From Trogon surrucura (Eukaryota; Chordata; Aves; Trogoniformes; Trogonidae): a stretch of DNA of 64,000 bases. The DNA lies in the NCBI GenBank assembly GCA_020746105.1, contig CM036628.1, positions 134,001 to 198,000 on the forward strand. The letters are read 5' to 3'. The notes beneath the pieces were generated by a model. That model did not search any database. It saw only the letters and a program-made list of their open reading frames with translations, and was not told the DNA's origin. Made by a program: the position numbers and the translations under genes. Numbering within the stretch: the first letter of the stretch is position 1; every line of letters starts with the position of its first letter. Below are positions 11,466 through 52,019 of this stretch, piece by piece.

Positions 11466-14400
11466 AAATCACACAGAACGTTAGAGGTTGGAAGGCACCT
11501 CAAAGATCATCTAGTCCAACCCCCCTGCCAGAGCAGGATCACCTACAGCAGAGCGCACAGGAACGTGTCCAGGTGGGTTTTGAATGTCTCCAGAGAAAGA
11601 GACTCCACAACCTCCCTGGGCAGCCTGTGCCAGTGCTCTGTCACCCTCACAGTGAAAAAGTTTTTCCTCATATTTTTGTGGAACCTCCTGTGTTCCAGCT
11701 TCCACCCATTGCCCCTTGTCCTGTCAGTGGACGCCGCTGAAGAGAGTCTGGCTCCGTCCTCCTGACACTCCCCCTTGACATATTTATAAACATTAATGAG
11801 GTCACCCCTCAGCCTCCTCTTCTCCAAGCTAAAGAGACCCAGCTCCTTCAGCCTTTCCTCATCAGGGAGATGCTCCACTCCCTTAATCATCTTTGTGGCT
11901 CTGCGCTGGGCTCGCTCAAGCAGCTCCCTGTCCTTCTTGAGCTGAGGGGCCCAGAACTGGACACAATATTCCAGATGCGGCCTCACCAGGGCAGAGTAGA
12001 GGGGCAGGAGGACCTCTCTTGACCTACTTGGTACTCCCCTTCTAATACACCCCAGGATGCCATTGGCCTTCTTGGCCACGGGGGCACATTGCTGGCGCAT
12101 GGCCATCTTGCTGTCCACTAAAACCCCCAGGTCCCATTCCCCTGCGCTGCTCTCCAGCAGGGCAGTCCCCAACCTATATTGGCACATGGGGTTATTCTTT
12201 CCCAAGTGCAAAACTCTACACTTACCCTTGTTGAACTTCATAAGATTTCTCCCCGTCCAGCCCTCCAGCCTGTCCAGGTCTCTCCGAATGGCTGCACAGC
12301 CTTCTGGTGTGTCAACCACTCCTCCCAATTTTGTATCATCAGCAAACTTGGTGACAACACTCTCTAATCCCTCGTCCAGGTCATTGATAAATATATTAAA
12401 TAGCACCAGCCCGAGCACTGACCCCTGAGGGACCCCACTAGACACAGGCATCCAGCCAGACTCTGCCCCATTGACCACAACTCTCTGGCTTCCTCCCTTC
12501 AACCAGTTCCTGACCCACGTCACTACTTGGTCATCCAGACCACACTTCCTCAGTTGACCTATGAAGATGCTGTGGGAGACGGTGTCAAAGGCCTTGCTGA
12601 TATCCAGATTAATCACATCCACTGCACAGCCACCATCTGTCCACCTGGTTATGTCCTCATAAAAGGCTCTCAGGTTGGTCAAACATGACTTCCCCTTGGC
12701 AAAGCCATGCTGACTGCTCCTAATAACCTTCTTATCCTTGATATGCCTAGAGACAGCATCGAAGATAAGATGTTCCATCACCTTTCCAGGGATGGAGGTG
12801 AGGCTGACCGGTCTGTAGTTACCCAGGTCATCCTTCCTGCCCTTCTTATAGACTGGAGTGACATTCGCTTTCTTCCAGTCTTCAGGCACCTCACCTGTTA
12901 CCCACGACTTACCAAAGATGATGGAGAGTGGCCTAGCAATGACTCCCGCCAGCTCCCTCAGCACCCGTGGGTGCATCCCATCAGGGCCCATGGATTTATG
13001 ATTGTTTATATGTTCAAATTGATCCTTAACCCACTCCTTATCAGCCAGGGCAAACTCCTCCTTTATCATGACTTCCTCTGGGGCCTCAGGGGACTGAGGC
13101 TCCTGAGGACGGCCTCCAACAGTGTAGACAGAGGCAAAGAAGGCATTCAGCAACTCTGCCTTCTTTCTGTCCTCTGTCTCCAGGACACCCACCTCATTCA
13201 ACAGAGGGCCTACATTGCCTCTAGTGTTAGTTTTGTCAGCAATGTATTTGAAGAAGCCCTTTCTGTTGTCTTTGACCTCCCTTGCAAGTTTTAACTCCAA
13301 GGAGGCCTTAGCTTTTCTGATTGCCTCCCTACACTCCCTGACAGCTGTCCTGTACCCCACCCAAGTGGCCAGCCCTTCCTTCCACAATTTATATACCCTC
13401 CCCTTCCACCTGAGTCTGCCGAGCAGATCCCTGGTTAACCAAGCAGGTCTCCTGGATCTCTTTCTTGATTTCCTACCTGATGGGATGCACTGATCCTGAG
13501 CCTCGAAGAAGTGGTCTTCGAATGCCAACCAACTCTCTTGGGCCCCTTTACCTTTCAGCACCCTGTCCCAAGGGGTTTCCCCCAGCAATTGCTTGAAGAG
13601 GCCAAAGTTGGCCCTTCTGAAGTCCAGAGTTGCGATCCTGTTCTGTTTTTAGCGCACAAGATCCTGAACTCCACTATCTCACAGTTGCTGCAGCCAAGAT
13701 TACCTTCAACCTTCACTGCTTCAACCAGACCTTCCTTGTTGGTGAACACAAGGTCCAGCAGTGCTCCTCTCCTGGTTGGCTCATCCACCATCTGCATCTA
13801 AAAGTTATCATTGATGCACTGGAGGAACCTCCTGGACTGAGGATGGCTGGCTGTGTGGGACTTCCAGCAAACATCTGGGTAGTTGAAATCCCCCATGAGA
13901 ACCAGGGCCTGGGATTAAGAGGCTGCTGTCAGCTGCCTGTAAAAGGCCTCATCAACTTCCTCCTCCTGATCAGGTGGTCTGTAGTAGACACCCACCACCG
14001 TATCACCTAAGCTAGCCTGCCCCTTAATTCTTACCCACAAACTCTCTACTTACTCCTCATCTGCCCCTGGATGGATCTCAATACACTCCAGTTGCTCTCT
14101 CATGTAAAGAGCAACTCTCCCACCTCGCCTCATCGGCCTGTCTTTCCTAAAAGGAGCATAGCCATCAAGGCCCACATTCCAGTTATGGGAGCTGTCCCAC
14201 CACGTCTCTGTAATTGCAATGAGATCATAGTTCTCCAGCTGCACATAGACTTCTAATTCTCCCTGCTTATTCCCCATGCTTCTTGCATTGGTATACAGAC
14301 ACTTAGATTTAATGGAGCATCTGTTACCGTTGCTTGTGCCTTTTACACCTAACCCTGGGATACTTCCCCTTGGCTCATGTGTAGTGACTTGGGTTTTATC

Positions 14401-21590: not shown

Positions 21591-24500
21591 TTATTTGGTG
21601 GCTGATTTGATCTTGTGGATGGCGTAGGGGCTTGACTCCTTGGGCATCCAAATCTCTTCCCCACTGCAGCCCTGGTTCTCCACTGCTCCCTCCATGGCTG
21701 CTGTCAGCTCGGGGCCAAAGATGCTGTCGGTGGCTCGGTAAGTGCGGGTGAGGCGGCGGAAGGAGGAGTCCGAAGAGCTGTCATCAGGAAGGTCTTCATC
21801 CTGCTCATCCCGCAGCTTGGTCTGGTTCAGCTCCGAGCTGCTACCCAGCTCTGGGTCTTTGAGAGCCTCCCCCAGCTCCTGGAGGAAGGTCGTTTTGGGG
21901 CTGATGATGCACAGCAGGAGCATGAGGCCTCCTGAGACCCCACAAAGAAAGTAGAGGCCAACTTTCTCTGGAACACCTGGAGGGAGAAGAGTAGAGAGAG
22001 ACACCAGATTTCAAACTGCCTCCGCAGCCTGCCGGGTACTGGTGCCTGGAAAACCCCTCTGCTGGTGTTTTCCACTGGGATGGGAAATTTTTGCCTGCAG
22101 TCCGTCAGTGTCATCAGACAGGACAGAAAGGAAGGAGACCCAGCAGGTAATTCAGCCCGTTGAAGAAGGGAGGTCCACAGGCAGGACCACAGCAGCACCA
22201 CAACCATTGATGCTGTGGGACCTTGGGTCTGGTTTGACCTCTGAGCTCCCACTTTATGTGCCACCCCACAACCCAGCATGGACACTTGGTGCCCTCCTCC
22301 CTCGCGTGCCTGCTGACCCTGCCAGAGGGGTCTGAGGTCTGGCTGCCTCTGAGCTGAGCCCTGGGCTGAGCATGGGCCATCATGGGACCTGAGCCACCCT
22401 CCCAAGCCTGTCCCACTCCCCCGGGTGCTGTGTGAAAGCCAGGGAGGGCACATACCCCAAAGGTGGGCAAAGGCTGCCAGGGAGCTAGTAAAAATCATCC
22501 GGTCTTCCCGGAGCCTGGAGAACCTGGGCCCTTTGTACCAGCCACCTGCAGCAAACAAGGGGACACGGGCTGAGACAGGAGGTGCTCTCCCGCGCCCCAC
22601 TGCCCGGCTGCCTGCCTGCTTCCCCACGCACACTTCTTCCTTCCTGCACAACCTCTCCTCTGCCTGCCGGGATGCTCCCTGGTCGCAGCAGACCACATCT
22701 CTTCAGCCCCTCAGACATGAGCACTGACCCATGGGCGACTTCAGCCACAGGCAGTGATGCTGTGATGGAGCTGCAGGGCTTGTGCCAGAGGTGGGTACCA
22801 TGGACACAGACAGGCCACAGAAGGGGTGGTTCACCTGGGCATGGGCATGATGCTGCACTGCTTATGGCGCAGCCTCCCCACCACGTTACCGTGCATGTAG
22901 TCCGAGAGCAGGAAGGGGTCCGAGGTGTCAGGGCCCACCTCTTCCAGCAGCTGCCTGGGCACTGCAAGGAGAGCACACGTCAAGCATCACCACCCTGCTC
23001 ATCTCCAGCAGGCCCTGCCTCCCCAGGGAGACCCGCAATCCTGCCTGCCTGGCACAGTGTGGGCACAGCAGGGGCTCAGCCAGTGGTCCCCGTGGCCCCA
23101 GGCCTGCAGGCAGCTCTCACCGCAGGTGTAGGAGACTCGCAGCTGTTTCTTCATGCCTGGGAGGCAAGGGTCCCCAAAGGTGGCCTGGTCAGCAGCCACG
23201 GTGCAGTTCCCCTTGCGGTGGCACTTCTTGGAGACCCTCCGTAGGGCATCCGGAGCCAAGCACTCTGCAAAGACACAGGGCATGGACCCGTGGGCAGACC
23301 TGCCTTCCCCTGCAACAGCCAGCTGGGACCAAGGGGCACAGGTATGGCCCAATGGCACACTTGTGCCACACTGTACAGCTCCTGGCCCCGTTTCTGGCTT
23401 GAACCAACCTGATTTACCTATATGGGGTCCTCCAGTGTTCAGGGCATCACACTCCGGTTTGCCTCGCAGGAATCGTCCATAATTTGCAGAATAAATGGCC
23501 AGGATGGATTTTGGTCGGCACTGCAGCCTCAGCTTGTCATTCTCGCACACAGTCTTGACCCGATGGTTCCCTGGGGAGTGACATCACAGAGCATCTCAAT
23601 GCAGCCCGCTCCTCCTTAAGCCCAGCCAGGGATCTGACAGGTGTCAAAGACAGGGCTGGAGGAGCGCTGTAAGATACAGGAGCAGCCCTGCTCCCCTCTC
23701 TGGCCCTTTCTGAGCAGCTAAGGCCAGAGCTCACACAGCGCTGCTCAGACTCTGCTCCACCTCACCTGGTCGGCACTTGTAGGAAGCAATGAGGTACTTG
23801 TGTGTGCCAGGGCATGGGTCCGGCCCAAAGACTTGGCTGTGCACTGAGAACTGGCACCACTGCTGGTCCTGGCACTCAGACAGCAGCTTCTGGAGAGCAA
23901 AGTGGGACAGACGTGAAGATGGGTGAGATGTCCTGAGGCTGCACTCACCTCCTCTGCCTCGGTGCCATCAGCAAGCTCAGGAAAAACGGCCTCTCCCTCC
24001 CATAGCAGCTCACACCCACCCAGCCTCACATGTAAGTTCCTGGACCCGTTCCTCCCCTGCACCCACATAGACCTGTGTGACAGAGTGCACAGCTCTGCTC
24101 CCGCCTGTGCTGGCACGCCCGCACCGCGCCGCGCCACGCACATGCAACGCGTGGGCACACCTGTGCACACCGGCGCACACCCACATGGCTCTGTGCGCAC
24201 CCACAGGGCCCCGTGCGACACTCGTGTGACACTCACAGGGCCCCGCGCAATGCGCGGCGCGGCCGCACGATGGGGCCGGGGGACCGCAGCACCGGCTGTT
24301 CGGGCTGCGTCCCCGGCGGGACCTGAGGGTCCGTCGCTGCTGTCCCCGCCTGACCCGAGGCGACGCTGCCACACGCACCGCGTGGCCGAGGGGCCGCGGC
24401 TCTGGCAGAGATCACCCAGCAGCAGCAAAGCCACGACCTGAGCAGAGCTCCGGGAGGGAGCGGGGGCCGCGGTTTATTCCTGACCCTTGCTGCCGCCCCT

Positions 24501-30588: not shown

Positions 30589-33500
30589 ATGGAGAGTCGA
30601 CAACACAACATCACCAAGGAGCCTGAGATTGAGCTGTTTGTGAAGGTGGGTCCTGGGGGGACGGTTGTTCTTTGGAAGTCGCCTGCAGGCTCATCCTCAC
30701 CAGCCTCTGGCTGCATGTAGGCAGTGGAAATTCATGGGTGTCTTCATGTTTTGGGAGGCTGGAGACTGGTAACAAGTTTGGGATTGCTGGCCAAGTGGGT
30801 GGCTAGAGGAGGCAACTGGACACACAGTGACGCTGGGACTGGTGAGGTGACACATCCAGCATCTGAGAGATGCCCTGGTGTCATGGTGGTCATGCACCCC
30901 AGGGGCATGGCGCTGCTGGCAGCTGGTGTAAGAAAGGAGTGGGCACACATACACCTCTTGAAACCCAGATAAGACAAGCCTGAGCCTGGGAACAGCAGTC
31001 GGGAGGGCTGGGAGCAGCCACTTCAGCTTCTCCTGGAAGCCAGTGTTGCGAAATGGAGTGGGGGTGGCTTGGGGAGCCAGCGCGGGTGCCCACATGTGGG
31101 CAGGATGGGGCGGCTTTGCAGGGCAGCCCAGGGAGATTATTCACTGGAAATGGCTCTTTTTGCCCATTAAGCAATTTTCTGAACACTTCTCCTGGAACAT
31201 TTTAGCACTCAAGTTCAAAATACTTGCAGCAGACATGGGGGGGTGTAGAAGGAGAGGAGCCGAGGCTGACGGCTGGTAATGGTGTGTGTCAGTGACAGTG
31301 CCTGGGGAGCGATGCCTCACTGTGCAGCCACACCAGGGTTTTAAGTGTGGGTGTCATGGGTTAGGGGTGGGTTTGTCTCCTCTGCTCCCAGGGCAGCTCA
31401 GTGCCCTAGAGGACCAGAGTGCTGGGCTGGAGGCACTGGCTTCCCTGATGCAGGCCCCGGCAGTGCTGGGCACTGTGTGTGGCACCTCGATTGGGTCACG
31501 GTTGGAAATATGTGTTGGAAGGGACTATCTGAGCCTTCGCAAGAGGGATCTCCCTATCCCCTTGCCAAAACTGTGGCCATGGTGGTGTTTGCCAGGCACT
31601 GAGCTCGGCTGAGCTGAATTGAGACAAGTGTATTTGGTGAAAGTAACTTGGGTATTGAATTCCCTTCTTAGCACTACTTTTTCCCCAGGACAGCTGAGGA
31701 GAAGAGGAAAATGATACATGTGGTGCCTGCTATGGCAGCAGCACGTTCAAGGGGGTTTTCAAACGGAAGGGAAACTGCAAACAAAGCAGCAGCGTCCTCA
31801 GGACTTCCCCTGTGTCTTAATTTATCACAAAAGAAACTTTCTGGCTTGTCTGTTAATAGACAAATGGATGCTGTGCCTCCTCCTCCCATTCAGAACTCAG
31901 TTTCGTCAAAGTCACGGCAGCTCTCAGCTTCAGACAGGCACCCTCCAGTGCCATCGGCACCTCACTCCTGCCTGGCTTGTGCTTTGGTGAAGGCCGAAGT
32001 TAACTCAGTGGGGAGGGAGCAGAGCAGCTCCTGCACTGCTGTCGAGTGGGCAGTCCCCAAGGAGCTGGCAGGTTCCCACCCGTCCGTGGTCCCAGCGAGA
32101 GCACCGTCCCACTGGCTCGAGGGTCTCTCCCTGCCCAGGAGGAGGCTCCACTCCTCAGCCCCATGAGGCATTTAGCTGTCCCAAGCTGCTTCACAGATTT
32201 TGGGATGGCTGTAGGAACTATGGGCAGGTCCCAGTGGGTGCTGAGCACTTTGCAGTGCCCCAGGCACTCAGAGCTGCTCCCTCTTGCCACCGCATTTTGT
32301 GCTGTTTCACCAAGAGTAAACCACAGGAACTGCCTGGTAACTGGGGGTTTAACGTCTCACGGAGCCTCTTGAGACCTCAGAGAACTGAGTCTAAAAACCT
32401 ACACCTCCCTGGAGATGCTGTGCTAGACCACACTGGGTTTATCCATCAGGTGGAGAGGAAAAGAGTGAGGAAAGTCAGTTGGGGGGTCCTGCAGCTTTAT
32501 TTGTTATAAGCTGACATGGGATGCTGCTGAGTGGAAGCTACCCAGGAGCTTTTCTTATTAATAGCCAGCAAAAAGCCTCATGTGTGCATTCAGCGTCCCA
32601 GAGAATAAATACATTTCTCAGTTCCCATCTCCTTTCTCAGGAGCATCGTTACATGACAGCTGAGCATAAGAAATACTGATTAAAAGTAATTTTCATTCCT
32701 CTGAAATTACTAAAAGGTGCTGTCATCACCTCCAGCTGACCACTCAGAGCATCGGGGTTTTGTTTCGGTCAGTTTACTGCCTCCCAGTTTGAGGCTGGTG
32801 TATCTCTTCTGGAGAAGCTGAGCACTCCAGAGTCTACAGGCCACCTGTAGACCCAGAGAGGTGACTTGTAGCACTTACCTCCAGCCCAGGAGAGCCAGGC
32901 ACAGGTCTCTGTGTCTTCTGCTCATGAAGCATCCTCAGCCATCCTGTCTGTGTGGTTCCTCCCTGCACTGGCAGGGCTGCCATGTGCGCTGGAGGACCAT
33001 GGTTCACGTGCACCTGAGGAACAGTTAATTTTCTTAAAGAAACTGAGTTTCCTGTGAGCCATTTTACCTCTCATACCATGGTGAAACTTCCGTCTCTGAG
33101 CAACATCTGTGCCAGTTTCCACGCATGGTGGGGAACCTGCCCTGTTTCTCTTGACCAAGCTCCTCAAAAGGAGCTTCAGTTGTTTTTGCAAAGTATATTT
33201 TCAGCTGCTACATAGCAAGGAAATGGGATTCATTCCACCTGCTGCTGCTTTCCCTTGGGATTACTGAGTGGGCATCATCTGGGTGAGACCCTGCTGAGGG
33301 AGCCCTGGTGGGACTCAAGGCAGGCTGTCCGAGCTCCTCGCTTTCCCATGTCCCCACTGACCCCATCCTGGTCACAGAACAGCCCCCTCAGTGCTGAGAT
33401 GCCACGGCTCTGTAAAAAGGGACAGCTTGCACACGATTGGAGTGTTAGGAGTTGAAACGTGGCTCCATTCCCTGCCGATGCGAGCATGAATCCACTGCTG

Positions 33501-36500
33501 CACAGCCTCACCGACCCCAGCCCCTTCTCCTCCCTGAGGCTGAGGAGGCTCTGTGGGTGGTTCTTGGCCATCATCAGCCTGAGGGAGTCATGCCTGCGCA
33601 CAAAACTGGAAGCAGGCACTAACAGCACACAAAAACAAACTGCTCTTTTCCTGGCAAACATTAGCACATTTCCCTTCTCGCCGCCCTTTGCAGCCTGATC
33701 TCCCAGCCAAGTGGACCCTCCCTTCCTCCCTATCCATCAGCAACCGCCCTCCACCTCCTTCCCCCGCCTTCTTCTCCTCTTCCTCCCAGCTTTATCTCAC
33801 ATTTCTGGGAAGGACTCGACCCCGGTATCCTGAGGATGCTCTCTGATGCTTTTGCGTGGCAGCAGGGCCACAACTTAAGGAGAGGATCCCACAGCTGAGC
33901 CCCCCAGTGCCGGGGGGGGCTCTCTGCAGCACACAGTGCCAGGGAGCCGAGCCGAGCCCTCTGTCTGCCTTCCTCCAGAGATGGGCTCTGGTCACTCTGC
34001 ACCTCCAGGCATCCCAGCTGTGCTGGTTGAGCCCAGCCGACGGGTTAAATCCTCATTTATCTGTTTTCCTGACAGGCTGGTCTGGATGGAGAAAACATCG
34101 GAAACTGCCCCTTCTGCCAGCGCCTTTTCATGGTGCTGTGGCTCAAAGGGGTCAAGTTCAACGTCACCACGGTGGACATGACCAGGTGAGATGACAGCAC
34201 AGACCAGCAGTGGCAAGGACACCTCCATCATCCCTTTGCTCCCTCCCGCCTGGTCTGCAACCAGCGTGCCATAGCAGGAGCGGCTGAGGTGACAGTCCCT
34301 GCCTGAGCACTGCCCGTCAAACATTGGGATGCAGGGGTGGGCCAGCATGCCACAGGGACTCCCTGTCCTGCTGGTTGTGGGTATGAGCCCAAGGCACCAC
34401 AGGGCAGACAGAAAGGCTGGGGACATTTCTCAGCCCCCCCCAAACCCAGCAGAGCAAGTGGGGATGCTCCCAGTCCAGCGCTCCCTCCCACACACCCACC
34501 TCTGCCTTGTCTGTTCTCCCTGGGGAGGCTGATGGGTGCGGGCAGGCTGCAGGCTCTGAGACCGCTTATTTTCTCCACTCCAGGAAACCTGAAGAGTTGA
34601 AAGATTTAGCACCAGGCACCAACCCACCCTTCTTGCTGTTCAACAAGGAGCTGAAGACAGACTTCATTAAGATTGAGGAGTTTCTGGAGCAGACCCTGGG
34701 CCCACCCACGTAATTGCAAGCTCAGTCCTTCCCTGTTTCGGGGCCCAGGCACGCCATGGCATTGCGTAGTGCTCGGCTGATTGGGAAACCCAGGCAGGGT
34801 GCTGGGAGGTGCCTGAAAGCAGCTCTGGGAGGAGGCTGGCTCCCTACACAGCACCCTGAGCCGTGTTCTGGAGGGCCAGGGATTGTGATACTGAGGGGCT
34901 GCATCCTCTGGGGGAAGGCAGTGGTTCAGGCTGTGAGGGGACGGGGACAGGCTAGGATGGAAAACAATGGGGGGAAATGCAGCAGCCCCTTGGTGCAGGC
35001 AGGGTTGGGGGGGAAGAGGGAGAGCATGGAGGGGTCCCTGCAGGTGCGGGCACCCCCAGAAGCTGGTGGCCTCGCAGCTGGTTGAGGCAGTTGGTGTCAA
35101 GGCAGAGCAGGAATTAAGATTCCTCCTTGTCTGTTTGTATCTGCTGTGCTCAGCTGAGTGAAAGCAAATGCCCTTGCGTGAGTGTAGCGGCATAGCTGGC
35201 CCAGAGGGCTGCTGCAGAGGCCAGACCCCCTGAGCAGGGCACTGCCCACAGCCCACTGAACCACCCACCCCGTGCGCTGCACAGCCGCAAACCTTCCTGC
35301 CATGTGCAGAAGAGGAAGTTTCAAATGCATTTGTCATCCGCCTCCTCAGAGGTGTCTGCCCTTGCAGCGCCCCCTGGGATGGCTGAGCCAACGAGAGACT
35401 GTTTCTAAGGAAATCGTAAGAGTTTCTGGGTTCTCCGGCCCCCTCCTGAGCCAACATGCATCCTTTGGGCCAGCTCTGCTCCAGGACTCTGCTGCCACCA
35501 GTGTCCCCACACCATGGGGTTTCTGCCTTGTGATTTTCCCCAAAATAACACAGCTCCCAGGGTGGCAGCTGCAGTAGTTTAAAGCATTGCCGTTCTCCCA
35601 CAAGCAGCCAAACATTACCTGCATCCTGCAGTACCAGCCCTGGGCACCACAGCCCAGGAGATAAGGCAGCTGAGGACCATGAGGCTGAGTCTCTGCCTGC
35701 ACCAACACGAATGTCTCTTTAAAGGTATCCGCACCTGAGCCCCAAGTACAAGGAGTCCTTCGATGTGGGGAGTGACATCTTTGCCAAGTTCTCAGCGTAC
35801 ATTAAGAACCCACGCAAGGAAGCAAATATCAGTAAGAGACGGGTGGGGGCTGTGGGGATGTGACTATACTGGGGAGGAAGTGATGCTTTTGTCTGGGGGC
35901 AAATCTTGCTGCCTTCCCCACCAAAGCCTCCTTAGCAAGCAGAGGAGCGGGCAGGAAGGGTGAAGGCAGTCCTGAGCTCCCCAGGGCTCTCCATGAGGAG
36001 AGCGGATCCGGGAGGGGGGCTTGGGGTGATGCTGCTGGCATCCCTGGGACCAGAGGCTCTGGCCAGAGTCAGGGCTGTGCACCACTGGGGTGGCCCTGAG
36101 GGCTTTCTCGCTCTACGCTAAGCCTGGGAGAGACTCAGACATGCAGGTGGAGCCCTGGGCTGTACTAGGAGCCCAGGTCACAAGGCTGACTGCACTTGTG
36201 TCCCTGCCCACCCAGATTTCGAGAAAGCCCTGCTGCGGGAGTTCCATCGGCTGGATGTCTACCTGAACACGCCTCTTCCTGAGGAGATCGACCAGGACAG
36301 CGTGGAGGACATCACTGTCTCCAAGAGGAAATTCCTGGATGGAGACCACCTAACCTTGGCTGATTGCAATCTCCTGCCTAAACTGCATATCATCAAGGTA
36401 ATGGCCAAGGTGGGGACACTCACTCCAGGACAGGGTGACAGGGTGGGGTGATGCAAACAGGGGGGCCTGTATTTGTACCCCCAGGGCCAGAGAGTGAGTC

Positions 36501-36709
36501 TTCCTCAGGTCTGGGAAGTCTCAGCCTCCTCCCCCTCTCTTCTCTAGATCGCAGCCAAAAAGTACCGTGACTTCGAGATCCCAGCAGACATGACGGGCGT
36601 CTGGCGCTACCTCAACAACGCCTATGCCTGCGACGAGTTCAGCCACACATGTCCTGCAGATGAGGAGATAGAGCATACCTATGCCAGCGTCGCCAGGAAG
36701 ATGACCTAA
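30589..36709 (+). CDS. CLIC2: Chloride intracellular channel protein 2
   Basis: Soluble glutathione S-transferase-fold protein that can insert into membranes; mammalian CLIC2 also inhibits ryanodine receptors. Exons 30589-30645, 34076-34185, 34584-34709, 35725-35831, 36216-36397 and 36548-36709 give 247 aa, the human length. The thioredoxin-like N-terminal half contains the glutaredoxin-type site CPFC at residues 30-33, followed by the putative membrane-inserting helix. KFSAYIKN and the all-helical C-terminal domain follow. Similarity to human CLIC2 is very high throughout (for example [20 protein letters not shown]); the first 11 residues differ, as expected for the variable N terminus. CLIC2 is at Xq28 in human. 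Exon 1 is separated by a 3.4-kb intron. Divergent from the EVA1C-like gene and convergent with the urotensin-like gene. Confidence 0.97.
30646..34075 (+). other. CLIC2 intron 1
   Basis: No coding exon, repeat family or RNA gene was recognised in this intron. Open frames on both strands lack family resemblance. Confidence 0.6.
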
Positions 36710-38438: not shown

Positions 38439-38444
38439 TTTATT
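38439..38444 (-). terminator. Poly(A) signal of the urotensin-like gene
   Basis: Plus-strand TTTATT is AATAAA on the minus strand, about 220 bases after the stop codon. The 3' end would face the CLIC2 3' end across about 280 bases. Confidence 0.6.
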
Positions 38445-38662: not shown

Positions 38663-41588
38663 TCACTTGGTGACACAGTACTTCCAGAAGCAACCTGGAA
38701 GAAAAAGTAAAAGACACCTATGTTAGGGGCTGCAGTAGTGCTTGGCTACAGCTGAGAAGCTTAAAGGAAGGGGGATGTTCATCTCTTCTTCCAGGCTCTC
38801 CTTCGTCTTTGAAGTCAGCTGCAGGAGCACATCCTGGGAGCTGATGGCCACCATGGACACCCTCTAATTAAAGCATCGGTACTCTTCACCCCGTCATGAG
38901 CATCCTCCACCCCAACCATGAGAATGCTCCACCCCAAGTCATGAGAGCATCCTCCACCTGAAGCCCAGCCTCTGCTTGCCGTGGTCTCTCTGCCAGTCAG
39001 TGGCAGGTTGGGTTCCAGAACCAGCTGGGAGTTGGGCACTCACCTTTCTTGCTGGGTTGCTGAGGGGCCTGGTATGTCTGGGTAAATCCCTGGCTCTGGA
39101 GCTCACCAGCTGCCACCATCTTCCAGAGGAGTGCACCAAGGTCTTGCACCTGCCATGGCAACACCATCATGCTTGTGGCGTCCATCTGGCAAAGGCAGCC
39201 CCCAAGCCCCTACCCCTCACTGCTGGACCAGGGAGGGATGAAGTGTTTGCACCTGAGTGGGGCTGCCTTGATCCCAATTTACTGCCCAACAGGGCTGGGG
39301 TTTGCTGGAACTTCATGGGAGGCTGGCCTACGGGATCCTCCTGCCCCATGGTGTCTCCCTGGGCTGCCCTCGCCTAGCCCAGAAAGGAACCCCCAACTCA
39401 CCAAACGGTCAGGGACATCCCCCTGGAGAGTGATTTTGTTTCCTTAAAAAAAGAAAAAGAAATGCCATGAGCATGCAGAGGCTACAGGTCCACTGCAGGG
39501 GGCAGGAGCCAAGGGTAGATATGTCAGAAAGAGAGGGGACACAGCACCTTCGCCTGCTTCTCTCCATGCTCCTCTGGAGCACTCCTTCATCCTGGATGCA
39601 ACCTTCCACCTCTTCATCCTTGTGCCTGCCTCCCTCCATGTGTGCCCCCGCACCCGCCCCCTCTGTGGGTCCAGTTCACCCTGTGCTCTGGGACTCACCT
39701 GTGCTATGAGCTGCTTTCTGGTCGTGGCTTGCACCTTCCCTTAGTGCAGGCAGAGCCTGGTTCAGGTCCCTGGATGGCTGGGGTCCTGCTAGAGGTTTGC
39801 TGTCAGCCATGAAGCCAACTGCACCGTCACCCAGGTTAAAATCCATTGGCGTGAGGTCTGGGTTGAATGAGAAGACAAGGACAAGGACAAAGCAACTCAT
39901 TTGAGGTGTGCTTGTTCCTCAGGCAGTGGAACAGAGAGCCTGAGACTGACAGCGAGTTGTTTGAGGGGCACTAGGGTTTGTCTCCTTATCTGGCCATGCT
40001 TGGCAGCTGGTGCTGGGAGTCAGAACTCTGCCAGGGCACTGCAGGTGTGGGTTCAGCGGTGCTGTGCTGAGGGGAAGGATCCCGTCCCTCGACCTGTGGT
40101 AGCACTCCTAACACAGCCCAGGACACCGCTGTGTCCTGGTGCCTGGCGTTGTTCCTCCTCAGGGCAATGACTACCACAGGCAGGAGAAGATCCCCATCAG
40201 TCACCCAAGTTCTCCTGCCACCAAAGATCCTTCCAATGGCAGCTCTGCAGACCCTGTCCTGGTCTCACTTAGCCAGGCTGCTGTGCCAATGGGAGCAGTG
40301 AGGGGTTGGGTCCAGACCCCTGTCACCCCAGGTATCATCACAGGAAAGTGTAAGCAGAAATCTTGCCTGGTGACTCTGTCCTGTAGCTCATTTGTGTTGC
40401 TCAGGAGAGGGAAAGTCTAAGGTCACCACCAAAACAAACGTCAAGCTCATGGCTACAATTAAGGTAACAAGTCACAGAATCATAGAACAGTTTCAGTTGG
40501 AAGAGACCTTCAAGATCATCGAGTCCAAACTTTGTCCTAGCCCTACCAACACCACTAAACCATGTCCCTAAGCACACGCTGCCCGACTGCGTTTAACCGG
40601 AAACCGGCTGGTGTTCTGGGGACTTTCCAGTGTCTCACCCTTCAACCCATTCCTTCTCCAGCATCTGCCCAGACCCAGGGAGCTCCCAACAAGCTCTGGG
40701 AGCTGAGCAGTCCCAAGCACTTGGCCTTGGATTTCCTTTGCCTCAGACACACGATCAAGCTGCTGCAGCTCTGGAAGCCCCCAGGAGTCAGCCAAGTGAC
40801 ACGAGGATCCTGCTTGCTTCCCAGCAGCAGGTGGCAGCATGCCGTGCCGGGGCCGCTACTGGAGGCTGTGCAAACAGACTGCGGGGCTGGGGCCATGCTC
40901 TCTTTCAGGAATTGAGTGACTTTCTCCAGCATTAGGAAGCCCGGAGTGCCTGGACCAGTGCTTATGCTGCTAGTCAGTACTAGCATGGGTACCAGCCCCG
41001 TGACCATGTACAGAACTCACTCCACTCCATCCCAGACCAGGCGACCCAGTGAGCACCGCTCACTCCCATGTGAGCTCCCTCCATACAGGGTGTCAGAAGA
41101 ACATCCAGTCTAGAGGCATGCCTTGTTTGCATGCCCCAGGCTGCCTGATCCCCAGGACAGCTCTGTCTGTCATCTCAGCACACCCGGACACTTCACCCGG
41201 GCTCTGCTGTCTGTAGATCACAACAGCCTAAGCAGTCCCTCAGGTACAAGACAATCTTTCATTATCCAACCCTGGAATGCGTTTAACAGTACTCCTAACA
41301 AAAAACCTGCCCCAGGCGAAAAGGTCTTTCTGCCCAAAGAAGTAGGGGCAGCTACACTGCTGTGCACGTCTGCAGCAGCCAAGTCCCTCTGACACACCAG
41401 ACACGAACCAGCATCCAGCACCACACAGTGCTGCACAGGGACAAACCTCACCCAACTTTCAGTTACAAACACCCAAATGTGCTGTCCTTACCTTGGGCAC
41501 TGTCGCTTTCAGGGTAGACAGGATAAGCATCGATGCAGTAAGCCCCTAACACGAGCACCAAGGTTATGACTGTCCTCTGGGAAGTCAT
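38663..41588 (-). CDS. Urotensin II-related peptide precursor, URP1-like
   Basis: Secreted neuropeptide precursor of 156 aa from five minus-strand exons: 41588-41492, 39857-39699, 39442-39402, 39185-39044 and 38694-38663. All splice sites are GT-AG and all phases agree. Residues 1 to about 20 form a signal peptide (core VITLVLVLGAYCIDA). A variable propeptide follows. The last exon gives residues 147-156, GCFWKYCVTK, directly after the dibasic Lys-Lys at 145-146. CFWKYC is the invariant disulphide-closed hexapeptide of the urotensin II family, whose receptors are class A GPCRs. The C-terminal Val-Thr extension resembles teleost Urp1 (ACFWKYCVTN) rather than UII or URP, which end at Val. The five-exon layout with the peptide in the last exon also fits. 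The weakest point is the 5' edge of exon 4: an internal acceptor at 39149 would remove 12 residues without changing frame. Confidence 0.85.
38878..38958. repeat. Short tandem repeat in a urotensin-like intron
   Basis: Three to four diverged copies of a roughly 28-base unit containing catcctccacccc and catgag lie between the last two exons of the urotensin-like gene. Confidence 0.6.
40474..40572 (-). mobile_element. CR1 LINE 3' fragment
   Basis: The plus strand reads cacagaatcatagaacagtt, then an element-typical run ending in accactaaaccatgtcccta, the reverse of a CR1 3' end. It lies in the first intron of the urotensin-like gene. Confidence 0.9.
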
Positions 41589-42300
41589 CTTCTTTCTTCC
41601 AAATCTTGACTGATTTCCTGGGAGCCTGTCAGTGAGGGAGTGTGAGGCAGTTCTCTTTTATGTCATCCACCTCTCTGAGATCAATACGCTCTCATCAGGT
41701 GGATTGTCTTTTCTGCTAGGTTGTCCATCCATCCTGGTGAGAGGAGGTGTCTGTCTCTGCTCTCTCCCAGTTCCATTTCTGTCACTCTTGAATGAGGATG
41801 CTTGATAAATGCTCGTCTGGGTTTTCAGAAGCTGTGCTGTGTTGGGGGAGTAAGTGCTACGGAATGCAGGACAGGTTATCCAGGGGTCTGGAGGAGGATC
41901 AGAACAGAACGAGGGGCCAACATTTGGGCAAAACACACAGACCCATGCTTTCTTTTAGCATGATCTTCCTCCCCAAGTGTTATCACATGTCACACTTCTT
42001 TCACATCTCATGGCAACACGAGGGCAGTGGCAAAGCCTTCAGACTCCGAGCATCCTGAACTTATTCTTGGTGGGTGCCCCATTTCCTAATGGGGGGGCAG
42101 CAGCCGGAGCTTCCTTGCTAGAACAATGTTTGACCTCACTGGTGTTCCAAGGAGCCTCTCTCCCTATTCTAGAAGCCAGCAGTGCAATTCTCCCTTCTAA
42201 AGGATGTGTCTGTGAGCTTCAGAAAATGATGTTGTCCCAGCCCTCTTGGCTGTGAACATCCAGGCCAATAAGTCACTGCAGACTGAAGGGACAGGCTGGG
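41589..42300. other. Upstream region of the urotensin-like gene
   Basis: About 700 bases between the first coding exon and the LTR. A promoter is expected here. An AT-rich stretch (minus-strand cataaaagagaactg near 41650-41665) could hold a TATA-like element about 70 bases upstream of the start codon. Nothing else was recognised. Confidence 0.4.
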
Positions 42301-47641: not shown

Positions 47642-50600
47642 TTACAGCTCACCGGCAGCTGAGGGATGTGGCTCGTAGCCAGAGAAGGCAGCTGCCTGTA
47701 GGTCATCGAGGGGCAACCACGGCGGCTGGCTGGGGATGCCCAGAGCTCCCTGCTCTAAGTCGTTCTGCTGCACTGTGCTGTTGCCCAGCTGTGGCTCAGT
47801 CCCACAGCCATGCAGAGGTTCGAGAACACAGAAGAGCTGCCCTCTGTCCTCCGTCTTGCTGGGAGGCAGCTTCACAGAGCTGAGCGGTACCCAGTGCCCT
47901 GCCATGCCCAGGCTCTCCCGCAGATCCTCCTGGTTGAAGCTCCTGCCCAGTGTGGGCAAAGGAAGGCAGCTGCCTGCTCCCGAGGCTGGGTGGTATTTAG
48001 AATAAAGCTGGAGTTGCAGGGAGAGCCACATCTCGGATGTCCAGTAGTCCCTGTCACCTCTGTAGCTGTTTCTGGCGCATTCCATCAGCACCGGCTGCTC
48101 CAGCACATCATCCTCATCATGCTCCTTCCCATCCTCCTCCAGCCGTGATGAGACCTGGGAGCCCAAGGCATGGCCCAGCTGACTGTGGGTGCAGGAAGGG
48201 TCCCTTCCCTCGTGGCAGACTGGTCCAAACCCATTGGCACAGTAGCCACTCATGTCCTGGGAAAGGCCTCCAAGGAGCTGGGCTGTGGACATTGTCTGCT
48301 CATCCACAGGCGATGCACGGGAGGGGAGCACGGTCGGCAGGAGCAGGGCAAGCGTGTCCATCTCCAGCTCCAGGGTGGGCGCCCCGACAGGCATGCTCAG
48401 CTCCCGGTTCAGGAGAGCCTGCTGGGAAACAAGCAGCAAAGCAGTCAGCCTCAGCTTGCTGAACTCTTCCGTGTTTTGGATCAGTGCAGCAGGGTTGCAG
48501 CCCTGAGAGCCTCTTCGAGCCCTGGGGCTGTACTTGTCCCAAGGGCAGAGCAGTGAGGGGCTGCATCTCCTCCAGGTCAGGAGAGCAGCCCCACTGTTTG
48601 CTTTTCTTCCCCTTTTTCTCCCCTTCAAGCTGTGTCGATGGACATGCAGACAAGCAAAATCCAACTGCCTAAAGCACGAGGCTCCTAACACTGAGGGCCA
48701 TGCTCGTAGAGTACGTGCTGCCCAAGAAACCCTCCTCCAGTGTGACCCACAGACGATTGATGCATCCCACCAGTATCTTCTCCCATGCAGCGTGGCCCTG
48801 GGGGTATGGTGGGTCAGGCAGTGGTGAAGGCCCCTGGGCACCAAGATGAGTTTGGTGGTGCAAGAGGCAGAGGGTAGGAGGAGCTGAGACTCCTGCAAAC
48901 ACCGGACCCCCTGCTTGGCTGCAGCACATGCGAGGTGGAGCTGGAGGAGGATCGTTCACTTACAAGTGTTTTCGGGAGGTGTTTCTCCGAGGCACCAAGG
49001 AAGATGTGCAGCTGGATGAAGCAGAGCCCGGACATGCTCAGCAGCAGGAAGATGCCACTCATCACAGCAAGGAGGACCCAGCGAAAGCCTGCCAGAAGGT
49101 CACCAACCAGCTGAGGGCTGGATCCCAGCCAGTATCCTCCCCCAGTCTACCCTATGCCAGTGCTTCCCCAGAGCTCCCTTGGCAGCCTGGGATGTTCAAG
49201 GAGGACATGCAGGGCAAGCCCAAGGAGGATGGTGAGAGCACATCTCACCAAGAAAGATCCTCACAAGGCATTATTGGGCCACCAACCCTGACCAAAATGG
49301 CTGGGGGCGGTAAATGACCCATACCTCCACCCGTGTCTGTGCCACAAGCAGGACCCATGATGCAACTACAGCTGCTGAGTTGGTGAGAGAGCTCCTACCT
49401 GAGGGGCTCACTGGCGTCACCATACACTGCTCAACCTCCTGGCTCCGCTCCCTGGCCACATCTCTGGCTGCTGTTCGGACACAGTACCGCGTGCTCGGCT
49501 TCAGGAACCTGAAGGTGCATGGTGCTCCATCCCTGCGCCGTTCGCAGGGCACCTGGAAGCAGCAGGGACACACAGCCAGGGTGGCTGGAGGTGGTGTCTG
49601 TGCACTGCTCCCCTCCACAGTGCCGCCTTGACACCCCACTCACTCCACGGTGTGGAGCACAGACCCTCCCTCCCTGCACCCCAGCATCTCCAGACCTTGT
49701 TTCTTCACCCTGGGAGGTGTTCAGGTCCCAGAGTACCTCACTAAATACCCACTGCCTACTTTCATCTGAACAGAAATTGTTACAGTTTTTTCTTATTTGT
49801 TCAATCTAGAAGAGGAAAGAAATCTCTTGCCACCCCCAGGTTATGAGACCTAATTGGGAGTGCAAAGCCTCTCACCGCTGGGTGTGGGCACAGGCACTAC
49901 CACACCAACACAACTGGGCACAGGCATCTATGCTGCACTAGGAAAGCTTTTGTAAGTCCTGCACACCCTGAGCCTTGCCCACCCACCACATACTTCTTGG
50001 AGGAGCACATCCCCTTCGTAGAGCTCCAGGCAGTACCGCAGCCTTAGCAGTACTTGGTCAACCGGCTTGTAAGAGCCATTTCTCCTTCGGTAGGGAGTGA
50101 ACGGCGTGGTGATATTTATACTGAGGATGTCATTCTGGAGCAGCAGGGACAGCTTGGGGGGACCCACAATTGCTGTAGGGAGGGAGGAAAGAAAAAAAAA
50201 AAAAGAGCAGGAAAATTAAGCTCTTCAAAACAGAAAGCAGACATCTTAATTCTCTAGAAAGGAAGCTTTTCTGTTGGACATCCAGCACACAGAAGCTTCC
50301 TTGGGTCTAGCCTGATGGCACTTTGTGCTGCAAAACCAGCTCCAGCAGCCACCATCCCTTTTTGACAGCACTTCATCTCCGAGCTATCAGACGATGGTCC
50401 AGAGACTCACCATGGAGAGCAGAAACTGCTCTTTTAGCTAAGTGCATCTATTTCCATGGCAGCTGGACACAGAGGGAATGAAAAAGGAAACTTAAGCAGC
50501 TGATATACATCCCATCTCAGCCCCCAGGAGGGGCAGGAGCCCAACTGAAGGAGCTCCCTGGTCCTTACTGTCTCTGTAGGGCTGCAGCTCGTTGGAAATG

Positions 50601-52019
50601 GCCCACTTGGACAGCTCGCCTCCCGCCACGGCTCTCACCCTCGCCCAGTACATAGAGTGGATGTCGTCAAAATACAGCTCACACGCCCAGGAGGAGTTGG
50701 TTCTCTTCCCTCCGCAGGCATCTGCCTTGGTCCAGTGAGAGGTTTTGCACCTGGAGAAAAAGCAGAGATTTCTCCTTTTTGACACCTTGCTAGCCAAAAA
50801 AGAAGGCTGCCTAGCTATCACCACCCTGTCCAGGTGGGAAGCGTGGGAGAGCACAGATACCGGCCAACAGCACCCTGGGCTGCATTAGGAAGAGCACTGA
50901 CAGCAAGTCAAGTCCCCTCTCACCAGCACGAGTGGGATGGCATGTGGAGTGTTGCACCCTGACATGCGCTCTCCACTACAAGAAAAACCACATCCACACC
51001 AGGGAGAGCTCACTGGAGGGCCAAAAAGATGGTACAAGGGAGGCTGAGTGAGAGGGAACTACTTAGTCTCAGAAGCAGGTGGGAGGGAGTGCATGTCACA
51101 TCAACATGACAGAGTGAAGAAGATGGAGACTGCTCAGCAGTGCCCATGGAAAGGACAAGAGCACTGGGCAGAGGTTGAGATACAGGAAATTCTGTTAAAG
51201 TCCAAGGGAAATTAACCCCCAAACCCAAACTCAAAAGCAACCCCCTTTTAACCCTTTTGTTGCTGGGAGGTGACCAGGAAAGGGAGTAGGTTGCCCAGGC
51301 AGGTTGTGGAGGCTCCATCCCTGAAGGTGGTCACAACCCAAGAGGACACAGTCCTGAGCCAGCCCTGCCTGAGCAGGGCTTGGACAAGCAGGTCTCTGGA
51401 GCTCCCTGCCAGCTCTGCTAGCTTCTTACCCCGCACTATTTACTGCCAGAGAATAATCCCCTGAGTACCGGGGATTCCTGATAGCCCTCTGCCAGAGCCA
51501 CCTCCACCCCACCTACCTCCACTCCACCTCGTATGTGATGTTGCTGGGTGAGCCGGGTGCCAACTCCCATCGCAGGCAGACGTGGAAGTTCTGTGCCTCC
51601 AGTCTCACGTCCTGTGGAGGCACCAGCATACCTGGCGAGGGGGCAGAGGGGTTGCTTTGCCATGCCACACAGGTCTCTCCACTTGACACATGCATCATGG
51701 GGCTTCCATTCCCCCCTACAACCTCCAGCTTCAGTCCTGACTGCCTACCAGGCTCAGGCAGGCACTAGCTGCCCTATCGGCATCCCATGAATCTCCTGCA
51801 CATCCCGGAGCATCCTACCTGTGGTCCTGTGAAAGGCACCGACACCCTGATGTGGTGGCTGGTCACCCTGGGGTTTTCATTCCCATTGCACCTCGAAGAC
51901 CACTTGATTCCCCTCCTCCCTAAGTCTGAGAGTTGTACCCATGCAGCTCCAGACCTAGACTTACCCTGGAGTAGGGTGCAGCTGGCCAGGGACAGAAGCA
52001 GGCTCAGGACAGGGCTCAT
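47642..52019 (-). CDS. Class II cytokine receptor, IL22RA1/IL20RA-like architecture, subtype unknown
   Basis: Single-pass receptor of the interferon/IL-10 receptor family, 529 aa. Minus-strand exons: 52019-51965, 51631-51517, 50750-50569, 50172-49994, 49552-49399, 49088-48964 and 48421-47642, the seven-exon plan of the family with the whole tail in the last exon. Signal peptide 1-19. First fibronectin III domain about 22-118 (PPQDVRLEAQNFHVCLRW, then YWARVRAVAGGELSKWA). Second about 119-225, opening VGPPKLSLLLQND and carrying the STRYCVRTAA...VEQC cysteine pair typical of D2. Transmembrane helix about 232-259. The juxtamembrane LPKTL (266-270) resembles the JAK1-binding box 1. The long 260-residue tail implies a signalling (R1-type) chain; tyrosines are present but no YxxQ STAT3 motif is evident. 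The ligand is unknown. Family membership is secure; orthology is not. Confidence 0.9.

Follow-up and report, generated by a model that had tools for sequence, protein, structure and literature searches.

A urotensin-related peptide 1-like gene next to CLIC2 in a bird genome

A 64,000-nucleotide stretch of the genome of Trogon surrucura (GCA_020746105.1, contig CM036628.1, positions 134,001 to 198,000; hereafter the window, in which all positions are counted) contains a five-exon gene on the minus strand, at 41588..38663, whose small precursor ends in the decapeptide GCFWKYCVTK. The gene itself is confirmed as a real observation. Taken as a whole, it is very probably the avian orthologue of urp1, encoding a secreted precursor whose terminal peptide would act on urotensin receptors. 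The bird gene adds to the known urotensin family. Its original description as the fourth urotensin-family gene in a bird is apt in that it represents a fourth type of the vertebrate family, but among birds it is a third ligand gene, next to the UTS2 and UTS2B that are given as the peptide genes in the zebra finch survey (PMC6349858, in part).

According to PMC8354755 (in part), urp1 and urp2 were previously known from ray-finned fishes alone, and frogs are described as having urp2, with no urp1 found there; the original prediction, which placed URP1 in frogs, erred on this point. A loss of URP1 in the tetrapod lineage has been suggested (PMC4364556, in part). The original prediction also knew of no report from a bird, and the open-access PMC literature searched yielded no account of URP1 from birds or any other tetrapod. 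Public databases, on the other hand, already carry the gene, filed as uncharacterized in Lathamus, Guaruba and Aquila and named URP1 in two lizards.

Results

The coding sequence extends exactly from 41588 to 38663 and comprises 435 nt, specifying 144 amino acids and a stop codon, with no stop or frameshift inside. Four introns of 1634, 256, 252 and 349 nt (in the 5′ to 3′ order of the gene), all of them GT-AG, separate its exons in phases 1, 1, 0 and 1, as derived from the exon ends. The coding part of exon 1 (41492..41588, minus strand, as are all exons of this gene) provides the ATG, the start of the propeptide, and a hydrophobic N-terminus that resembles a signal peptide by eye only and aligns with the N-termini of relatives. 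Exon 2 (39699..39857) and exon 3 (39402..39442) continue the propeptide, the latter consisting of only 41 nt that are entered in phase 1 and left in phase 0, and being placed by its splice sites and by alignment to relatives. Exon 4 (39044..39149) encodes the segment that begins VQDLGALLWKM and runs up to the Lys-Lys cleavage site, and also contributes the first base of the following glycine codon, while exon 5 (38663..38694) is devoted to GCFWKYCVTK and the stop. The product therefore reads as a prepropeptide with a hydrophobic leader, a propeptide, and a C-terminus in which KK directly precedes GCFWKYCVTK; the five phase-consistent exons, dibasic site and terminal peptide of the original prediction are all borne out. 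Pattern matching alone identifies a TATA-like element, CATAAAAG, at 41655..41662 on the minus strand, 74 nt upstream of the ATG, as a putative core promoter, and a putative AATAAA polyadenylation signal at 38439..38444 on the same strand, 219 nt past the stop. Chance origin of the CFWKYC stretch is ruled out, as a dinucleotide model predicts about 4e-5 occurrences of an 18-mer encoding it over the two strands of the window, against the one observed.

The acceptor of exon 4 has a weak pyrimidine tract (45%), and it is at this position that the model given here departs from the 156-residue precursor first proposed, which can be reconstructed by using an acceptor 36 nt further upstream. The 144-residue form is probably the correct one, because the 12 extra residues are carried by none of 11 aligned relatives. 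The exon 3-4 junction is also where two parrot models (P0001 and P0002) differ by a single Gln (PL-GED versus PLQGED), a difference that a tandem NAGNAG acceptor, used alternatively, could explain.

A copy that is dead, its transcription having ceased, is an unlikely account of this structure. The presence of introns indicates that the gene is not a processed copy, the 435 nt of coding sequence are free of stops and frameshifts, and in both parrots the gene is represented by several isoform models, which would suggest transcript support.

The propeptide provides evidence of identity that is separate from the short peptide. In a blind six-frame scan, the 2428 open stretches of the window were compared with URP1 profiles. 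A profile of seven squamate URP1s returned five matches, four of which are exons 2, 4, 1 and 5 of the gene (E-values 2e-11, 5.4e-9, 7.7e-6 and 0.0029, respectively), arranged in the correct order, with exons 1, 2 and 4 occupying profile positions 1-32, 33-90 and 100-135; the fifth is a single unrelated stretch (E = 4) that is taken as chance. A second profile, built from the 93 proteins among P0019-P0120 that are 120-170 residues long and contain CFWKYCV, all from fishes and sharks, matches exon 4 (2.1e-6), exon 5 (5.9e-4) and exon 1 (0.016). Among the same 2428 stretches, exon 2 was missed by the fish/shark profile and the 41-nt exon 3 by both profiles.

When the mature peptide was removed from the profiles, the bird propeptide still scored 134.5 bits with the squamate profile (best of 200 shuffles, 3.9) and 52.4 bits with the fish/shark profile (best of 200 shuffles, 5.8), and the match is therefore not driven by the peptide alone. 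These comparisons bear directly on the possibility that the gene is one of the two already known from birds, UTS2 or UTS2B (PMC6349858, in part), with which it shares the CFWKYC ring, a core common to the whole family. Human UTS2B, in a sequence that was not taken from a database and was stripped of its peptide, obtains 2.8, 3.8 and 5.7 bits from three peptide-less profiles, which is the level of shuffled sequences, and UTS2 from the same kind of source, without its peptide, is not among the best 20 rows shown for each of these profiles. With the peptide retained, UTS2B rises to 21.0 and 21.7 bits and UTS2 scores 8.7 and 13.3 against the full-length profiles, as would be expected from the shared ring. 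The tail argues in the same direction: three residues (VTK) follow the ring in the window, whereas human UII and mammalian URP have one, ending in Val (PMC4364556, in part). Since the relatives among the matches listed are, in addition, mostly named URP1, identity with UTS2 or UTS2B is largely contradicted, and we consider it extremely improbable.

General databases contribute little. The Pfam model Urotensin_II (PF02083), which covers 12 residues and is not specific to URP1, matches at 15.2 bits, under its cut-off of 18.6; a BON_like match (15.6 bits against a cut-off of 24.1) is taken as chance, and a comparison of the precursor with PDB sequences gave 0 matches.

Relatives of the precursor were gathered in stages. 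A protein search with the window precursor found three proteins, from the parrots Lathamus and Guaruba, and a region search with one parrot protein found five, adding two further records. A four-bird profile (the window, Lathamus, Guaruba and record P0004) then gave 192 matches at E-values up to 10, the best 120 of which are listed and span from 1.1e-44, for a gecko, to 7.4e-10. Among the matches listed are the golden eagle, seven squamates (Gekko, Podarcis, Phrynosoma, Varanus, Liasis, Phrynocephalus and Paroedura), the newt Pleurodeles, sharks, rays, and many ray-finned fishes; urotensin-related peptide 1 is the name given to the majority of the fish and shark entries. That mammal, chicken, crocodile and turtle are missing from the best 120 of 192 matches is no evidence of loss.

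In an alignment with 11 relatives, identity to the window precursor is 63-66% for the birds Lathamus, Guaruba and Aquila, 43-51% for three squamates, and 29-33% for the shark, bichir and characin rows; in the alignment made for the tree, the golden eagle is nearest, with 71% over 124 columns, a kinship that by itself points to a bird as the source of the window. The same gene is present in Lathamus (LOC136019610), Guaruba (ACIB01_012094) and Aquila (LOC121232514), without a urotensin name in any of them. Squamate URP1s share with the window the pattern AYPVYP...DFNL...VGF as well as the exon-4 block, and two of the models already go by the name urotensin-related peptide 1, that of Podarcis lilfordi and, as a UniRef entry, that of Phrynosoma platyrhinos. 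Shark and ray-finned fish urp1 proteins have the CFWKYC core, a Val-Thr-X tail, a dibasic site and a small precursor, and their propeptide is homologous, including the LWKL/LWKM block of exon 4, which is clearest in sharks. Two database names look wrong in light of the sequences: Varanus P0011 (Urotensin-2B) and Pleurodeles P0017 (Urotensin II) end in ACFWKYCVTN and ACFWKYCVTK, respectively, and their names are doubtful because these ends are of URP1 type and both proteins match the bird profile along their length.

A further candidate is URP2, the paralogue known from frogs and fishes, which likewise has a longer tail and a fifth exon for the peptide only. Indeed, the last exon of frog and zebrafish urp2 encodes the peptide alone, a plan that the window gene shares (PMC8354755, in part). 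By the same account, URP2 ends in SQN in fish and in IQNK in frogs, whereas the window gene ends in VTK, and urp2 lies near rcan1, clic6 and gart in frog and fishes. The neighbour of the window gene is instead CLIC2, whose coding exons, placed by comparison with a human CLIC2 sequence, occupy 34073..36709 on the plus strand, convergent with URP1, with a possible N-terminal piece at 30619-30660. The joined pieces score 430.9 bits with solved CLIC2 and 373.9 with CLIC6. The urotensin-named proteins in the best 120 of 192 matches are all URP1, except for those of Varanus and Pleurodeles, which end in CFWKYCVTN and CFWKYCVTK. URP2 identity is rejected on the VTK tail and the CLIC2 neighbour, and is regarded here as highly improbable.

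The original prediction had asked whether clic2 or faah2 is nearby. The former adjoins URP1, as described above, and for the latter the window does contain an amidase-family gene, presumably FAAH2-like; the comparisons made with it show the family but not the subtype. By Pfam domains the window further contains a PH/C1 kinase (presumably diacylglycerol kinase-like), a B-type cyclin (which we assume to be CCNB3-like, its best-scoring solved structure being cyclin B1), a SUEL lectin gene, and a class II cytokine receptor. CLIC2-URP1 and the published CLIC6-URP2 arrangement may, as we infer, represent two copies of a duplicated block.

Two other genes deserve mention. The class II cytokine receptor-like gene (48817-51764, minus strand; pieces joined by eye) matches Tissue_fac at 47.1 bits and Interfer-bind at 23.3 bits and has no good match among solved receptors, the best being IL22RA2 at 42.7 bits; it may be an orphan gene related to the IFNAR/IL10RB cluster, which would be in line with a duplicated block. 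The SUEL lectin gene, presumably EVA1-like (21594-23967, minus strand), matches the SUEL lectin domain in two stretches (93.6 bits) and FAM176 with a score under its cut-off. In human, EVA1C is a chromosome 21 gene in the vicinity of IFNAR and CLIC6, and the EVA1-like gene may thus also be a paralogue from that block. Elsewhere in the window, a 701-residue open frame (11546-13648, minus strand) resembles, as read by eye, the reverse transcriptase of CR1-type retrotransposons.

A tree was constructed from 27 URP1 rows and two outgroup rows (UTS2 and UTS2B, likewise not from a database), with no URP2; P0001, P0011 and P0083 were trimmed N-terminally, and the eagle row was cut before the frame change described below. 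The bird clade is supported at 100/100 and birds plus squamates at 97/97, within which birds are placed beside geckos, inside squamates, with weak support (87/83); the newt joins at 83/49. UTS2 and UTS2B sit apart on very long branches, and UTS2B falls among the URP1 rows. Kinship with squamate URP1s is what the tree establishes; taken by itself it does not separate the paralogues, given the long-branch position of UTS2B and a row set that lacks URP2. URP1 identity is supported, beyond the Val-Thr-X tail, by the propeptide, the squamate grouping and the CLIC2 neighbour.

The tail was compared across 120 fetched proteins, of which 110 have a readable peptide end, several being isoforms of one gene. 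Val-Thr is found in 108 of these (93 VTN, 6 VTD, 6 VTK and 3 VTS), with VSD in the remaining two, and the claim that the VTK tail of the window matches teleost Urp1, and not UII or URP, holds. Upstream of the ring the window is unusual: KR followed by Ala precedes the first Cys in all 110 readable relatives, and KK and Gly1 occur in none of them. The peptide of fish urp1 is ACFWKYCVTN, all seven squamates keep KR and ACFWKYCVTN, and both parrots have KR followed by ACFWKYCVTK, as opposed to KK and GCFWKYCVTK in the window.

Irregularities of other kinds occur in two further bird records. One VTK record that groups with birds in the tree has CLWKYC, with Leu in place of the core Phe, and the two golden eagle models examined (P0006 and P0013, from Aquila chrysaetos LOC121232514) depart from the common reading frame within exon 4, upstream of the peptide. 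CFWKYCVTK-stop, read in a shifted frame, is compatible with the tail of P0013 and with that of a second Lathamus isoform, Lathamus X4 being an isoform that carries the peptide; in an approximate control, ACFWKYCVTK-stop was compatible with 2 of 20000 random fragments, the match found being CFWKYCVTK-stop. The eagle frame change may be a mutation or an error of assembly or annotation.

Because KK and Gly1 are absent from all 110 relatives, and because frame or core changes appear in those two records, constraint on URP1 may have been relaxed in birds, or the gene may be in the course of being lost there. In its fuller form, this reading describes a gene that looks intact but is fading in birds, disappearing lineage by lineage, with a peptide that is perhaps scarce or weak. 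In favour of such a history, the bird stem of the tree is long (0.57), and chicken has been reported to be without URP2 and Utr4 (PMC8354755, in part). The frame, splice sites, ring and Val-Thr of the window, however, are all intact, the dibasic site and peptide are kept in protein models of two parrots, and the eagle change is possibly an artefact of the kind just mentioned. Lys-Lys, moreover, is a usable convertase site. We regard such fading as conceivable, though somewhat doubtful; it is compatible with descent from URP1, and its probability does not compete with that of the urp1 orthologue proposed above.

Discussion

If the bird gene is a urp1 orthologue, its operation can be proposed from what is known of the family. 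The signal peptide would be removed from the secreted prepropeptide, a prohormone convertase would cut after Lys-Lys, and the ring CFWKYC would be closed by its two cysteines, releasing the decapeptide GCFWKYCVTK to act on G-protein-coupled urotensin II receptors. Zebrafish express urp1 in hindbrain nuclei and in cerebrospinal fluid-contacting neurons of the spinal cord, and the synthetic form of fish URP1 (ACFWKYCVTN) is an agonist of human UT, with a pEC50 of 7.99 (PMC4364556, in part). By analogy, hindbrain neurons and spinal neurons contacting the cerebrospinal fluid may be the sources of the bird peptide, and it is on this same analogy that its expression, processing, receptor and role are suggested here, whereas the structure of the gene, its homology and its CLIC2 neighbour are read from the sequence.

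The receptor is likely to differ from that of fish. Zebrafish Urp1 and Urp2 maintain the spine largely via Uts2r3 (PMC9836392, in part), and this receptor, also called Utr4, has been reported missing in chicken and mammals and present in Anolis (PMC8354755, in part). Since it is reported missing in chicken, bird URP1 probably acts through another urotensin receptor, such as UTS2R1, 3 or 5; the receptors described for chicken are UTS2R1, 2, 3 and 5, with UTS2R2 likely lost in Australaves (PMC6349858, in part). A more tentative proposal, which we would not put at even chances, is that those birds that keep URP1 use the peptide without URP2 and Utr4, through a different urotensin receptor and in a different role, and that URP1 is being lost in other birds. 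If true, this would provide a natural series inside amniotes, with a full axis-control system at one end and a dismantled one at the other.

URP1-type proteins occur in sharks and ray-finned fishes as well as in a newt, in squamates and in birds, a distribution that fits a loss in mammals rather than a gain in fish, as the original prediction proposed. Together with its squamate and newt relatives, the bird gene would shift the loss of URP1 to later lineages, namely mammals and, separately, frogs. Bird URP1 is also a candidate extra ligand, as chicken is described with four receptors and two known ligands (PMC6349858, in part). Overall, the role of URP1, best known from fish, would now become testable in birds and reptiles, and with it the pathway that leads from neurons contacting the cerebrospinal fluid to the shape of the spine would become testable in amniotes.
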